From an uncultured Rhodospirillales bacterium (lineage in GTDB: Bacteria > Pseudomonadota > Alphaproteobacteria > Acetobacterales > Acetobacteraceae): 64,000 nt of DNA. The position numbers and the translations under genes are program-made. This document shows positions 5,509 to 45,025 of this stretch, in pieces; positions within the stretch are counted from its first letter, which is position 1, and each line of letters opens with the position of its first letter. A model generated the notes under the pieces. That model saw only the letters and a program-made list of their open reading frames with translations. It had not been told where the DNA came from and ran no database searches. The stretch is taken from assembly GCA_903844135.1 (NCBI GenBank), contig CAIMSN010000073.1:1-64000 (forward strand), given 5' to 3'.

Positions 5509-6753
5509 ATGGCCAGCCAGCTCTCCCTGCCGAAGGACCGGATCCGCATACTCCTGCTCGAAGGGGTGCATGACAGCGCGGTCGAGGCGCTGGCGGCGAG
5601 CGGCTACGCGTCGGTGACCCGCCATGCCGGCGCGCTGGAGGGAGAGGCGCTGCAGCGCGCGCTCGACGGCGTGCATGTGGTGGGCATCCGCAGCCGCACC
5701 CAGCTCACCGAGGCGGTGATCGAGGGCGCCGACAAGCTGATCGCGATCGGCTGCTTCTGCATCGGCACCAACCAGGTGGCGCTGCACGCCGCCGCCAGCA
5801 GGGGAATTCCGGTCTTCAACGCACCGTTCAGCAACACGCGCAGCGTCGCCGAGCTCGTCATGGGCGAGATCGTCATGCTGCTGCGCAGGATCTTTCCGAA
5901 ATCCGTCTCCGCCCATCACGGCGCCTGGGACAAGTCGGCCGCCGATAGCTGGGAAGTGCGCGGCAAGACTCTGGGCATCGTCGGCTATGGCAGCATCGGC
6001 AGCCAGCTCTCGGTGCTGGCGGAAGCGTTCGGGATGCGGGTGATCTATTTCGACACCGTCAACAAGCTCGGCCACGGCAATGCGATCGCGGTGCCGACCC
6101 TGGCCAGGCTGCTGGCGGAAAGCGACGTGGTCAGCCTGCATGTGCCGCAGACGCCCGAGACCGACCTGCTGATCGGCGAGGCGGAGATCAGGGCGATGAA
6201 GCCGGGCGCCTTTCTGCTGAACAATGCGCGCGGCAACGTGGTCGATCTCGACGCGCTGGCGCGGGCGCTCGACGACCGCCATGTGCTGGGGGCGGCGATC
6301 GACGTGTTTCCGGTCGAGCCCGGCAGCAACAAGGAGCGTTTCGTCTCGCCGCTGCAGGGCCGCGACAACGTGATCCTGACGCCGCATATCGGCGGATCCA
6401 CCGCCGAGGCGCAGGAGCGGATCGGCGTCGAGGTCGCGGCCAAGCTGGTGGAATACAGCGACGTCGGCGCCACGCTGGGCGCGGTGAACTTCCCGCAGGT
6501 GCAGTTGCCGCCGCGTCCGCGCGGCACGCGCTTCATGCACGTGCACCAGAACACGCCCGGGATCCTGCGCCGGATCAACGAGATCTTTTCCGAGGCGCAG
6601 GCCAACATCGCCGCCCAGTTCCTGCAGACCGACGGCGAGCTGGGCTACGTGGTGGTGGAGGCGGAGACCGAGCGCGACGACGACGCGGCGATCCTGGCCA
6701 GGCTGCGCGCCCTGGACGGCACCATCCGCGCCCGCCTGCTGTATCAGCGCTGA
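5509..6753 (+). CDS. serA: D-3-phosphoglycerate dehydrogenase
   Basis: First step of serine synthesis, oxidising 3-phosphoglycerate with NAD. The 414-aa length matches the short E. coli-type enzyme. Visible: substrate-domain motif GIRSRTQLTEAV, the NAD-binding GIVGYGSIGSQLSVLAEAFG, the catalytic region PETDLLIGEAEI and LTPHIGGSTAEAQ, and a C-terminal ACT domain starting near VHQNTPGILRRINEIF, the usual site of serine feedback. The ATG at 5509 is preferred over an in-frame TTG at 5464 because family members begin close to the SLPKDRIRILLLEG segment. Confidence 0.95.
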   Translation: MASQLSLPKDRIRILLLEGVHDSAVEALAASGYASVTRHAGALEGEALQRALDGVHVVGIRSRTQLTEAVIEGADKLIAIGCFCIGTNQVALHAAASRGIPVFNAPFSNTRSVAELVMGEIVMLLRRIFPKSVSAHHGAWDKSAADSWEVRGKTLGIVGYGSIGSQLSVLAEAFGMRVIYFDTVNKLGHGNAIAVPTLARLLAESDVVSLHVPQTPETDLLIGEAEIRAMKPGAFLLNNARGNVVDLDALARALDDRHVLGAAIDVFPVEPGSNKERFVSPLQGRDNVILTPHIGGSTAEAQERIGVEVAAKLVEYSDVGATLGAVNFPQVQLPPRPRGTRFMHVHQNTPGILRRINEIFSEAQANIAAQFLQTDGELGYVVVEAETERDDDAAILARLRALDGTIRARLLYQR

Positions 6754-6794: not shown

Positions 6795-6843
6795 CTTAAC
6801 CCGCCTGGGCGCATTCTTCGGATCGCATGATCCGGAGGACCGC

Positions 6844-8340
6844 ATGACCGTCGCCTGTGTCAGGAGCTTTGCCTTCGCCGGCGTCGATGCGGTCCCGGTC
6901 GAGGTGCAGGTACAGATCTCGAACGGTCTGCCGGCATTCCTGATCGTCGGGCTGGCCGACAAGGCGGTGGGCGAGGCGCGGGAACGGGTGCGCGCGGCGC
7001 TGACCGCGATGGGGCTGGCGCTGCCGCCCAAGCGCGTGCTGATCAACCTGGCGCCCGCCGACCTGCAGAAGGAAGGCAGCCATTTCGACCTGGCGATCGC
7101 GCTGGCGGTGCTGGCGGCGATGGACGTGCTGCCGCGGCACGAGGTGGCGGCCTACGCCGCGATCGGCGAGCTCTCGCTCGACGGCAGGGTCAATCCGGTA
7201 ACCGGCGTGCTGCCGGCGGCGATGGGCGCCTCCGCGCTCGATCTCGGTCTGATCTGCGCCGCCAGCCAGGGCGGCGAGGCGGCCTGGGCGGGACGGATCG
7301 AGGTGCTGGCGACGCCGGACCTGCTGTCGCTGGTCAATCATTTCCGCGGCCAGCAGGTGCTGAGCCCGCCGGTGCCGCCGGGCATCGCCGAGGCCGGTCA
7401 ACACCCCGACCTGGCCGACGTGAAAGGCATGGAGACCGCGCGCCGGGCGCTGGAGATCGCCGCCGCCGGCGGTCATTCGCTGATGCTGATCGGGCCTCCA
7501 GGGGCCGGAAAATCGATGCTGGCGGCGCGGCTGCCAGGCCTGCTGCCGGACCTGTCGGCGGAGGAGGCGCTGGAGGTGAGCACGATCCACAGCATCGCCG
7601 GGCTGCTGCAGGACGGCAGGCTGGTCACGCGGCCGCCGTTCCGCGAGCCGCATCATTCCGCCAGCCAGGCGGCGATCGTCGGCGGCGGACCCAGGGCCAA
7701 GCCGGGCGAGGTCAGCCTGGCGCATCGCGGAGTGCTGTTCCTCGACGAGATGCCGGAATTGCCGCGCCAGTCGCTCGAGGCGCTGCGCGCGCCGATCGAG
7801 ACCGGTCGCACCACCGTCGCCCGCGCCGCCGGCCACTACACCTATCCGGCCAGGTTCCAGCTTGTGGCGGCGATGAATCCATGCCGCTGCGGTTATCTCG
7901 GCGACGCGACCCGGGAGTGCCGGCGCGCGCCGCGCTGCGGCGAGGAATACATGGCCAAGATCAGCGGCCCGATGCTGGACCGGATCGACCTGACGGTGGA
8001 GATGCGCCCGGTCACGCCGAGCGAGCTGTCGCGCGCGCCGGCCGGAGAGCGGAGCTGCGACGTGGCCGGCCGGATCGCCTGCAGCCGCCGCCGCCAGCAT
8101 GCGCGCCAGGACGGGCTCTGCAACGCCGAGACCAATCCGGACCAGTTCGTCCTGGCGGAGGATGCGCGCTCGCTCGGCGAGCAGGCCTCCGACCGGCTCG
8201 GCCTGTCGGCGCGCGGCTTCACCCGGGTGCTGCGCGTGGCCCGCACCATCGCCGACCTCGACGCGAGCGACAGGATCGAACGCCCGCATGTCGCCGAAGC
8301 CCTCAGCTACCGCCGACGCACCAGCAAAGCCTGCCTGTAA
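6844..8340 (+). CDS. comM: YifB/ComM-family magnesium chelatase-like AAA ATPase
   Basis: A 498-aa AAA+ ATPase. The N-terminal ChlI-associated domain begins with VRSFAFAGVDAVPVEVQVQI. The Mg-chelatase-type core has Walker A GPPGAGKSMLAARLPG near residue 217, Walker B VLFLDEMPE, and the family segment AAMNPCRCGYLGD. A C-terminal lid contains LSARGFTRVLRVARTIADLD. ComM members are hexameric helicases that extend branch migration during uptake of foreign DNA; activity here is inferred from family. ATG at 6844 is preceded by CCGGAGG. Confidence 0.9.
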   Translation: MTVACVRSFAFAGVDAVPVEVQVQISNGLPAFLIVGLADKAVGEARERVRAALTAMGLALPPKRVLINLAPADLQKEGSHFDLAIALAVLAAMDVLPRHEVAAYAAIGELSLDGRVNPVTGVLPAAMGASALDLGLICAASQGGEAAWAGRIEVLATPDLLSLVNHFRGQQVLSPPVPPGIAEAGQHPDLADVKGMETARRALEIAAAGGHSLMLIGPPGAGKSMLAARLPGLLPDLSAEEALEVSTIHSIAGLLQDGRLVTRPPFREPHHSASQAAIVGGGPRAKPGEVSLAHRGVLFLDEMPELPRQSLEALRAPIETGRTTVARAAGHYTYPARFQLVAAMNPCRCGYLGDATRECRRAPRCGEEYMAKISGPMLDRIDLTVEMRPVTPSELSRAPAGERSCDVAGRIACSRRRQHARQDGLCNAETNPDQFVLAEDARSLGEQASDRLGLSARGFTRVLRVARTIADLDASDRIERPHVAEALSYRRRTSKACL

Positions 8341-8574: not shown

Positions 8575-8811
8575 ATGGACAAGAACCCCAAGACCGACGT
8601 TGGCGACGCGCAGGATCTGCCGTCGAACACCGTCAAGAACCCCGACGACTGGACCACCGGAGACGAGACCATGACCGGCGCCCAGGCCTCTTACCTCAAG
8701 ACCCTGTCGGAGGAGGCCGGAGAAGAGTTCGACCCGACGCTCAGCAAGGGCGAGGCGTCGAAGCGGATCGACGCGCTGCAGGCGGCGACCGGACGCGGCA
8801 AGGATCATTGA
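8575..8811 (+). CDS. small DUF3072 protein
   Basis: A 78-aa soluble, acidic protein. The C-terminal half (MTGAQASYLKTLSEEAGEEF, then LSKGEASKRIDALQ) matches the short DUF3072 domain found in small, often stress-linked bacterial proteins of unknown function. The N-terminal 32 residues are polar and probably disordered. It stands alone behind an EcfG-like promoter that nearly touches the start codon, which supports a stress role. Translation could instead start at the internal methionine at residue 33. Confidence 0.8.
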   Translation: MDKNPKTDVGDAQDLPSNTVKNPDDWTTGDETMTGAQASYLKTLSEEAGEEFDPTLSKGEASKRIDALQAATGRGKDH

Positions 8812-42876: not shown

Positions 42877-43142
42877 CACACGCGTTCCTGCCCTGGCCGG
42901 GCGGCGATGGGAAGGGCGATGGCAGGCTGCCGGCCAATACCTAAACCGGCGCCGGGCTCCTCCCAGCACTCGCAAGCTGACAGTTGTCCCAATCAACTAT
43001 GCCGCGAACCTCTACGGCTGGCTTCCTCGGACACGGTAACAGCGTCAATAATTGCCCCGCATGGGACTATTTGCCGTTTTCCAGAGCGTCTAGGGTCCTA
43101 TAATAGCCACCAGGACTCGAACGCTATCAGCATACCCCTCAG
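42877..43142. other. left junction of the AT-rich island
   Basis: No gene seen in 266 bases. Base composition shifts from GC-rich to near balanced at about 42980. A T-arm-like word lies at 43106-43124 but does not form a tRNA. No integrase-type core repeat was recognised by eye. Confidence 0.4.
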
Positions 43143-43310
43143 TTATTCTGGCTTCGCCGTCGGCCTATGCCCTACGATCTGACGCAACCACTCGGCAAAG
43201 CGGGCTTCGTCATTGTCGGTTTTGAGATTGTGCGTGGCTTCTCTGAACTTATTGGACTGGGATTCCGGTGCTTGATTTATATTGCCCCCACAATAAAAGG
43301 AATTTACCAA
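43143..43310 (-). CDS. small uncalled protein, partner of the island gene
   Basis: A 55-codon frame from TTG 43310 to TAA 43143, just after the stop of the 313-aa gene and in the same frame. The C-terminal 36 residues (KFREATHNLKTDNDEARFAE, then WLRQIVGHRP) form a charged helix pair that resembles a widespread small Proteobacterial protein with a KF(R/K)EAAR..L..DE.E.RF pattern, as I recall it. AGAGGG lies upstream of the TTG. The N-terminus is shorter and odder than expected, so start or integrity is uncertain. Confidence 0.5.
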   Translation of the reverse strand: MVNSFYCGGNINQAPESQSNKFREATHNLKTDNDEARFAEWLRQIVGHRPTAKPE

Positions 43311-43322
43311 ACCATCCCTCTA

Positions 43323-44264
43323 CTATTTCTTGGTGCGCTTCACCTTGAAGTCGAGATAGTCGCGAATGAACTCATAACGTGCTGTCGAAGGATCGCCTTG
43401 GTAACTGATGAAGATTTCGCCGCCTTCGTCATCGATCAACCGCTCTTCCTTCCATCCTTTCCGTGGGGCACCACGTTCGGGTTCCGGCAGTTCCAACGTA
43501 GGGGTGAATACTGCCTTCGGGAGGGCTTCGCCTTTGCGCTCTAAAATTGCGCTTTCAAAGGGTATTCCGCTTTTCTCGCCGTCGACAAATACGAATGTCA
43601 TTCCATCATGCTGCTGAATTGCTCGTACCCGACGAGGATCGGAGAACTGTAGCGATCCATTCACCTCGGCCTGAATCCAATCGCCGACTTCGATCTTAGG
43701 CCTTTCGTTCTGGCTACCCGGTTCATCTCCGGCTGTGTCGAGACTATCGGAATCAGTGAGTTTTGCGTAGGCAACAGTCGCGTCATAGACCCGAAGGAAC
43801 GTTTCGGCGGCGCTTTGTGTAAATTTCGCTTTTAGAACAAGCTGGTCAAGGCATACGGCGTCGATCGGTCGCCTCGCGCCCCATTCATGCCAGTATGTGG
43901 AAATCGCTTTTGGCGTAAGCGCGAAACGGCGGATCAAGTCCTTCTTGATGCTCTCCTGCTGCGCCCGAAGATAGTTACGACCATCCTCGGTAAGGTTTGT
44001 TTGACGGCTCGGGCCAGCACCCTGATAGTCAACCATCCCATAAGACTTCAGCGCAGCTAACGTTTGCGCGGCTTGGCTGCTCGCCTCTTTCATGTCCCAA
44101 GCTAGCCCTGCCCTGTTCGCAGGAGTCGGGTGGCGCCCGAACTTGGTCTCATATGCGACGAGACGCTCGATTGCCGCAGGCAAGCTGATAAAAGGGAAGG
44201 ACGGACTACGATCCTTTGGAGGTTTGACTTTACCGCCAGGAGGCAGCTCTGCGTCGTCAGTCAT
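43323..44264 (-). CDS. accessory island protein of unknown function
   Basis: A 313-aa soluble protein. Residues 25-105 (FPFISLPAAIERLVAYETKF, then TLAALKSYGMVDYQGAGPSR) look like a winged-helix domain. Residues 105-170 (DLIRRFALTPKAISTYWHEW, then TQSAAETFLRVYDATVAYAK) match a conserved block of an uncharacterised Proteobacterial family, as I recall it. The C-terminal third has a possible barrel-like segment and a charged end. Its base composition is clearly lower in GC than the neighbours, roughly half, suggesting transfer. ATG 44264 has GGAG seven bases upstream; GTG 44267 is possible. Confidence 0.7.
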   Translation of the reverse strand: MTDDAELPPGGKVKPPKDRSPSFPFISLPAAIERLVAYETKFGRHPTPANRAGLAWDMKEASSQAAQTLAALKSYGMVDYQGAGPSRQTNLTEDGRNYLRAQQESIKKDLIRRFALTPKAISTYWHEWGARRPIDAVCLDQLVLKAKFTQSAAETFLRVYDATVAYAKLTDSDSLDTAGDEPGSQNERPKIEVGDWIQAEVNGSLQFSDPRRVRAIQQHDGMTFVFVDGEKSGIPFESAILERKGEALPKAVFTPTLELPEPERGAPRKGWKEERLIDDEGGEIFISYQGDPSTARYEFIRDYLDFKVKRTKK

Positions 44265-44308
44265 CACTAGACTCCTACTTGATATACGGGTTTCCTATCA
44301 GAATTAGT

Positions 44309-44337
44309 TTGACAGGGCAACCCATAAGCGGAATGAT
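44309..44337 (+). promoter_or_regulatory. sigma-70-like promoter of the island mini-transcript
   Basis: TTGACA (44309-44314), a 17-base spacer, and AATGAT (44332-44337). The -35 is perfect and the -10 matches TATAAT at four of six positions. The predicted start lies just before the AAGGAGG ribosome site of a 20-codon ORF. It diverges from the 313-aa gene. Confidence 0.6.
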
Positions 44338-44357
44338 GCCCCGCAAGGAGGTGCAAC

Positions 44358-44420
44358 ATGAACGTCAAGAGAGTCGCTCTAGCCGCCGTCATGCTCACGG
44401 ACGCGGCACGGGCAAAATAG
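44358..44420 (+). CDS. 20-aa leader or micro-peptide
   Basis: ATG at 44358 sits six bases after a perfect AAGGAGG, and the frame stops at 44418-44420. The peptide (MNVKRVALAAVMLTDAARAK) is basic at both ends with a short hydrophobic middle, too short for a clear membrane span. The promoter upstream and hairpins downstream suggest a real translated mini-transcript: a leader peptide, small toxin-like peptide, or dual-function RNA. No family known to me. Confidence 0.45.
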   Translation: MNVKRVALAAVMLTDAARAK

Positions 44421-44421
44421 A

Positions 44422-44456
44422 GAAGCCGCCAAACCGGTGAGACGGTCGGCGGCTTC
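44422..44456 (+). other. strong hairpin after the 20-aa ORF
   Basis: GAAGCCGCC (44422-44430) pairs with GGCGGCTTC (44448-44456), and an inner ACCG/CGGT extends the stem. There is no following T run, so it is more likely a structured RNA element than a terminator. It starts two bases after the stop codon. Confidence 0.6.
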
Positions 44457-44489
44457 GAGGTGGGCCAATATAAGCGTACGAACCAAACT

Positions 44490-44524
44490 GGCGGCGGTGT
44501 TCATAGCATCGCCGCCCTTCTTTG
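44490..44524 (+). terminator. probable intrinsic terminator of the mini-transcript
   Basis: GGCGGCG (44490-44496) pairs with CGCCGCC (44510-44516) around 13 bases, followed by CTTCTTTG. With the promoter at 44309-44337 this would define an RNA of about 180 bases. Confidence 0.5.
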
Positions 44525-44622
44525 TGAATCCATTAAGAACCACCTTCGATGCGACTTTGTTTGCAGACCGATTTGGACCCGCTCTTTCCCCATTCTAGTC
44601 ATGCTGGTCAGACCTTGCGTAG

Positions 44623-44697
44623 GTTCAGTCGCTTGCCGAAGGTGCCATCGAGACCTTCGACGGCGCGGACGGCACGATCAAACCGCTAAGCAGGTAA
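44623..44697 (+). pseudogene. possible C-terminal gene remnant
   Basis: The frame after a TAG at 44620-44622 reads 24 codons to TAA 44695-44697. The end (EGAIETFDGADGTIKPLSR) looks protein-like and is less GC-biased than shadow frames. No start codon is placed suitably. It may be the tail of a gene disrupted at the island boundary. The rest of 44525-44800 holds nothing I can name. Confidence 0.2.
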
Positions 44698-44800
44698 ATG
44701 GCGGCGCTCCGATACTCATTGGAAGCCTTTCTCGACAGCCTGACAGGCCGCCACGCCCATGCGGCTTGCCAGCGGTGGCCGGCGAGGCGATCCTGCGCCG

Positions 44801-45025
44801 ATGTGGAACGAGCCCTATCTCGAGACCTGCTGCCGGTCGGCGCTGCACCGGCTGCTGTTGTGCGGCGCCGCTGGACGCCCGGATGCGACCGAGGCGGACC
44901 TCAAGGATGCGCGCTGTCTGGACCGGCTGGTGGAGCTCGGCTTCGCCAGCCACGACGAGCCGCGCTATCGCATCACGCCGGCCGGTCTGGAGCGTCACGC
45001 CCTGGAAATCAGGAAGGTCGCGTAA
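44801..45025 (+). CDS. small protein of unknown function, winged-helix-like
   Basis: A 74-aa protein (MWNEPYLETCCRSALHRLLL at the start). The end LDRLVELGFASHDEPRYRIT PAGLERHALEI resembles a small winged-helix wing used in bacterial DNA-binding proteins, but that is a visual impression. GC content is back to chromosomal level. The S24-like regulator starts 13 bases later, so the two are probably cotranscribed. Confidence 0.6.
   Translation: MWNEPYLETCCRSALHRLLLCGAAGRPDATEADLKDARCLDRLVELGFASHDEPRYRITPAGLERHALEIRKVA

Follow-up and report, generated by a model that had tools for sequence, protein, structure and literature searches.

The AT-richer insert beside pyrD in the window, by which we mean the whole 64,000-nucleotide stretch analysed here, is probably the decayed and stranded remnant of a cargo-carrying IS1595-family transposon (transporter IS, tIS). 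It holds a winged-helix gene and, directly downstream, a small gene. Intact elements exist, gene order and strand are shared with them, and a leader in front of the two genes is conserved. The window would have lost the transposase and both inverted repeats.

The insert and its two genes

Insert: The insert spans positions 42919 to 44760 (no strand assigned), with the left edge at 42894-42945 and the right edge at 44741-44763. It is about 1.8 kb long, adjoins pyrD, and contains both ORFs. In the other genomes of the genus it is missing (4/4), and the two flanks align there 25-83 bp apart. Homology stops at 42893-42918 and restarts at 44742-44764. pyrD and the gene starting at 44801 are neighbours in all four congeners; hence, the window holds about 1.8 kb extra. 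The G+C content is 0.51-0.57 within the insert and about 0.70-0.75 in the surroundings. An earlier note on this DNA, made from the letters alone, had described an accessory AT-richer insertion, and the G+C values and the absence from the congeners bear this out. The DNA of the whole insert has no match among plasmids. Against 200 genomes of the family, it matches only itself and three short stretches (26-37 bases, E 2e-4 to 7e-4), which are located in GC-rich frames and are apparently unrelated. Rfam gave nothing at the gathering score in the insert and one chance microRNA match (E 0.58). A tRNA remnant suspected by eye at the left edge was dropped, as ARAGORN called none and the pairing is poor.

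Winged-helix gene: This gene (43323 to 44264, minus strand) encodes 313 amino acids from the ATG at 44264 or 314 from the GTG at 44267. The ATG lies one codon inside the GTG and seems, by eye, to be better spaced from the AGGAG. Both ORFs are on the minus strand, for which the earlier note gave no strand, and in the same frame with 12 bp from the stop to the TTG of the small gene. A profile made from 22 relatives with the window left out scores the window protein at E 8.7e-96. Compared with locus L075, the changes by codon position are 102, 86, and 214, and the third-position excess supports coding. The family is sparse, with matches in 3 of 200 family genomes and 8 of 385 class genomes (own genome included in each). 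A search of the own genome with the 314-aa protein gave one match. This protein matched nothing in plasmid and phage records. Patterns from the single sequence were found in no viral contigs and confirmed in no genome contigs. With six loci from viral contigs and 17 from genome contigs added, 30 other winged-helix loci were available in total. L087 and L096 are the contigs of L004 and L005, as L103 and L104 are those of L075 and L076, and each was counted once; L078 and L079 seem near-identical, and both were kept.

Winged-helix protein: Pfam, NCBIfam, and PADLOC gave no match to either window protein, known toxin families included. Their PHROGs matches are weak (best E 0.11 and 0.19). A Pfam scan of 10 winged-helix family members gave only single weak matches (best E 0.02) and did not confirm a suspected relation to DUF5343. 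Sequence searches of solved structures returned nothing credible, the best match of the winged-helix protein having E 0.86. The predicted model (mean pLDDT 86.8) has a tandem HTH with the helices of this region at 28-167, followed by a small barrel at about 195-241 and a C-terminal beta-beta-alpha module. The barrel may be SH3-like, which is our own reading of chromodomain and PWWP matches. The C-terminal module varies between relatives and is of the same type in the window and in L086. Foldseek found nothing in the PDB at E 0.001 or better and two matches at this threshold in a viral library, both with low TM-scores. The best structural match is the DNA-recognition domain of FokI (1fok_A; residues 22-185, Z 9.2, 161 aligned, rmsd 3.5). 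It differs in that the window protein has no nuclease domain and shares only 9% identity. MarR-type proteins match with Z of about 7-8 (maximum 8.0) over about 70 residues, so that the Z of FokI is only slightly higher. The predicted fold is a winged helix, as in MarR-type or FokI-type DNA-binding proteins. Because of these structural matches, the winged-helix protein is likely to bind DNA, although a shared fold by itself shows no function. It would probably be a sequence-specific regulator, for which its own leader and promoter region would be the first candidate target. The earlier assignment to a winged-helix protein of an unnamed family agrees with the HTH folds of the model and the lack of a Pfam or NCBIfam match.

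Small gene: This gene (43143 to 43310, minus strand) encodes 55 amino acids from a TTG start with the core SQSNKFREA...DNDEARFAEWL. It had been proposed as an overlooked 55-codon ORF directly downstream in the same frame, to be judged by its conservation. A leave-one-out profile of 17 relatives, built with the window left out, scores the window protein at E 8.1e-10, which confirms both the ORF and its conservation. Judged by these sequences, it is beyond chance and a member of a conserved family. The changes by codon position (24, 15, 25 compared with L075 and 23, 18, 29 compared with L086) weakly back coding. The protein model shows two predicted helices with low confidence (pLDDT 65.3). Matches were found in 11 of 200 family genomes at E 0.1 or better, most of them weak and some spurious, and in 21 of 385 class genomes at E 0.01 or better; both counts include the own genome. 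The family is also matched in phage contigs and in 34 plasmid records. In the motif Q..(R/K)F...A......D.....F, the Q, F, and D are invariant among 18 members. A Pfam scan of 18 members of the small family gave only single weak matches (best E 0.0073).

Intact elements and the probable remnant in the window

L086 (Pelagibacterium) is an intact IS1595-family transposon of 2,928 bp. It has perfect 24-bp inverted repeats (24/24) at 2632-2655 and 5536-5559, and the 8-bp target duplication AGTGATTA flanks it on both sides. The transposase matches PF12762 (E 1.8e-33) and the PF12760 zinc ribbon (E 1.1e-11). With this transposase, the repeats, and the duplication, L086 is an IS1595-family transporter IS. 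From one end to the other, it has an inverted repeat, the transposase, the leader, the winged-helix gene, the small gene, further sequence, and the second inverted repeat; the transposase, leader, and both genes are all on one strand.

The cargo part of the window insert is as in intact L086 with respect to genes, order, strand, and leader. The conserved leader (44358 to 44560, no strand assigned) shares 71% identity with the corresponding place in L086 over 198 nt and 69% with L004 over 175 nt. It comprises a hairpin and a mini-ORF, both read by eye. The hairpin is terminator-like and was read on the minus strand at about 44423-44455. Similar terminator-plus-hairpin layouts precede, again by eye, many of 10 winged-helix genes examined. 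We dropped the idea that the leader is general to IS1595 elements, as it is common only to the window and L086 among 29 regions compared. On the plus strand of the window, a divergent ORF of 20 codons at 44358-44420 is preceded by a strong ribosome site, MNVKRVALAAVMLTDAARAK, and followed by a terminator-like hairpin (by eye). The matching places in L086 and L087 are similar, and the arrangement may represent a leader peptide or a small RNA.

A stretch upstream of the winged-helix gene on the same strand (44608 to 44685, minus strand) may be what is left of the C-terminal end of an IS1595-family transposase. Over 22 residues, it matches the final part of the IS1595 transposase profile; this weak match scores 4.6 bits and is the best in the insert. 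Of 200 shuffles, 5 reached that score anywhere, and none did so at the C-terminal end of the profile. Beyond this short match, no intact PF12762 transposase was found in the insert, nor were terminal inverted repeats or a target duplication. With one IS1595 transposase from a small-gene element as query, no match at E 1e-60 or better was found in the host genome. Since neither repeats, nor a duplication, nor a host transposase match were found, we call the insert a remnant and not a member. The ancestral element would have been an IS1595-family transposon with the winged-helix and small genes as cargo. Loss of its transposase and both inverted repeats would have stranded the two genes, which thus presumably no longer move.

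Complete elements were also sought around the other winged-helix genes by a strict test, which demands repeats of at least 18 nt at 85% identity or more and an exact 8- or 9-bp duplication. It covered 25 of the 30 loci; the five omitted (L075, L078, L079, L080, and L101) showed no repeats in a looser scan. Nine loci passed and 16 failed; among the nine, the transposase is of the IS1 type in five and of the IS1595 type in four. None of 70 control anchors (60 random window places and 10 other loci with short flanks) and none of 25 shuffled loci passed. The complete IS1-type elements are L013 (2,653 bp), L014 (4,021 bp), L015 (2,762 bp), L016 (3,339 bp), and L097 (2,391 bp). Besides L086, the IS1595-type ones are L090, L093, and L099. 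An association with mobile or defence regions had been raised in the earlier note. The mobile part agrees with these 9 of 25 strictly tested loci in complete elements, and PADLOC had no match for either window protein. An IS1-type (9) or IS1595-type (7) transposase is present in 16 of the 30 loci, as judged by profiles built from sequences chosen by motif out of these same loci. The other 14 showed no IS1 or IS1595 transposase; several of them, not all, are on short or cut contigs.

In a tree of 30 winged-helix proteins, the IS1 and IS1595 types are not separated. The labels, for which the window was counted as IS1595 and 13 rows were unlabelled, need at least four changes, and 0% of 200 bootstrap trees have a single change between transposon types. 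The tree is weak. Only 7 of 27 inner branches are well supported, and these force no more than two changes; some clustering of the labels is also seen (40 and 32 of 500 shuffles were as low). We read the winged-helix gene as cargo that may have switched vehicle between transposon types.

Some of these elements hold further small features. The complete IS1-type elements L014 (6223-10243) and L015 (7087-9854), both with repeats and an 8-bp duplication, each contain a tRNA gene, at 6817-6914 on the minus strand and at 8698-8771 on the plus strand, respectively. One of these tRNAs has the anticodon UUA, which would read the UAA stop codon, and one is a tRNA-Thr(CGU). Further tRNA calls near winged-helix genes are in L019 (UUA), L012 (one unclear, one Met), and L095 (called Cys). 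Panacea (PF13274, SocA-like antitoxin) is encoded in two complete winged-helix transposons, L016 (8961-9389, E 1.8e-21) and L099 (4425-4994, E 5.9e-18). A conserved small ORF of the IS1-type elements (GPKGQKRPADVI...KGG.ARA..L....R..IA.KAA..RW) occurs in L013, L014, L015, L016, L019, and L097. It was found in 5/5 complete elements, 6/29 winged-helix loci, 0/26 small-gene loci, and 0/19 control loci.

The small gene and IS1595 transposases

For the small gene, 26 loci were re-fetched with wider flanks. Its own window copy and L024, L028, L030, and L048-L051, which are weak matches in long or unrelated frames, had been excluded before counting. The profile is matched in 25 of the loci, and L117, without a match, was left out. 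An IS1595 transposase is located upstream on the same strand in 19 of the 25, whatever stands between the two genes. In some loci nothing intervenes; in others, AlbA_2 (PF04326), PIN-type, or other genes do. Of four PIN-type genes scanned, three matched PF01850 or PF18478 above the cut-off. The six loci without this transposase are L105 and L108, each with less than 1.5 kb upstream, and L110, L120, L121, and L127, in which none was found in more than 6 kb upstream each. In L109, L111, L112, L119, L129, L130, L081, and L082, the small gene is inside a complete element that has repeats and an exact duplication. Seen from the transposase side, the small gene is present at 6 of 23 related IS1595 transposase places, of which three were read with 1.5-kb flanks only; two of the six small genes are divergent and clear only by an iterated profile. 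As it is present at only these places, the small gene belongs to a subgroup of IS1595 elements. Its tie to the transposase, whatever stands between, makes a role in the element likelier than a role with the winged-helix protein alone. The two-helix protein would be an accessory of IS1595-type elements that is made from the cargo transcript, and it may act with the transposase or with the cargo between the transposase and the small gene.

L130 (5820-6861, the same place as L037) is 1.04 kb long and bounded by perfect 24-bp inverted repeats, with an 8-bp duplication. In it, the N-terminal part of an IS1595 transposase is joined in frame to an apparent PIN-type C-terminal part (by eye), and the small gene follows; L130 is perhaps an internal-deletion derivative. 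In L156 (4969-7147, G277 contig 85), a long inverted repeat (110/120 nt) encloses two divergent IS1595 transposase genes that share 58% and 56% identity with the query.

A sharper form of the remnant explanation, which does not exclude it, takes the small ORF as a genuine second core gene in a subgroup of IS1595 transposons. Its product would regulate transposition or serve as a co-factor, with the winged-helix gene as exchangeable cargo placed between it and the transposase. We rate this at somewhat less than an even chance. Nothing stands between the transposase and the small gene in L119, L123, L125, L128, and L129, and other genes do so elsewhere. However, L119, L123, and L129 also hold a long convergent ORF, which is possibly cargo. 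The unrelated small ORF in all five complete IS1-type elements and the mixing of both transposon types in the winged-helix tree favour this form, but the tree is weak, with its few supported branches and its partly clustered labels. Moreover, with the small gene at only 6 of 23 related places, transposition in general can do without it. As a tentative proposal, the protein of about 45-65 residues with the core QxxRFxEAARxLxxDExExxF may be an unrecognised second core component of the IS1595 subgroup, retained with any cargo. IS1-type elements would have an unrelated counterpart, and the winged-helix protein would be common regulatory cargo that moves between both families.

A dedicated functional pair, e.g., a toxin-antitoxin system or a regulator with its co-factor that travels on transposons, is unlikely. 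The two genes are close in the window, and they overlap in L075 (a phage contig) and L086, which fits a pair. Profile searches gave the adjacency count that the earlier note had called for: the small gene is directly downstream in only these 2 of the 30 other winged-helix loci. In L076 and L088, the small gene is upstream of the winged-helix gene in the same neighbourhood, so that both genes are nearby in 4 of 30. The claim that the two sequence types occur side by side elsewhere thus holds for L075 and L086, but a conserved pair is not supported at this frequency. Toxin-antitoxin-like genes (PIN; Panacea, PF13274) are among the cargo of such elements. In L113, the frame stays open past the small domain for another 100 residues or so, and the domain hence can be fused to other domains. 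Against this, the small gene also accompanies PIN, AlbA_2, and other genes, or adjoins the transposase with nothing between. The pair reading is only partly right, as the common factor is the shared transposon type and not a fixed two-gene system.

A gene island that arrived by homologous or illegitimate recombination, with no transposon ever involved, is similarly improbable: it would suit a window without repeats, duplication, or intact transposase and a host without the transposase match, but not the gene order and leader shared with the intact transposon L086 or the possible transposase relic at the expected place.

Comparison with known transposons

The paper on the IS1595 family is that of Siguier et al. 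(2009), and its title ties IS1595 to IS1. tISCpe8 is an example of an IS1595-family transporter IS and has a paper of its own. The transporter IS (tIS) is defined and tISCpe8 is mentioned in PMC7986276 and PMC5704250. That transporter IS carry passenger genes, and that IS1595 elements can bear cargo, is already known (PMC7986276, PMC5704250, PMC3129680). Among the literature matches listed, with subscription journals and ISfinder outside the scope, neither protein family was named as cargo of IS1595 or IS1 elements.

With the insert as a transposon remnant, two unnamed ORFs become recognisable parts of a poorly annotated class of small transposons, for which the small protein could serve as a marker to find elements and remnants. 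PIN, AlbA_2, Panacea (SocA-like antitoxin), and tRNA genes are also cargo of such elements. It is a testable proposal that IS1/IS1595-type transposons may code for very small helper proteins that annotation has missed.

IS1-type elements (L013-L016 and L097; PF03400 is shown for L013) resemble the window in the same winged-helix family, which they carry inside repeats like GGTAGTGTCTCAGTTTGA and between 8-bp duplications. They differ in their unrelated small companion ORF (KGG..ARA...KAA..RW) and lack the small gene of the window. A further comparison is with IS1595-family tIS such as tISCpe8. L086 and others share with these the PF12762 transposase, terminal inverted repeats, 8-bp duplication, and extra genes, whereas the window copy is without the intact transposase and the repeats.
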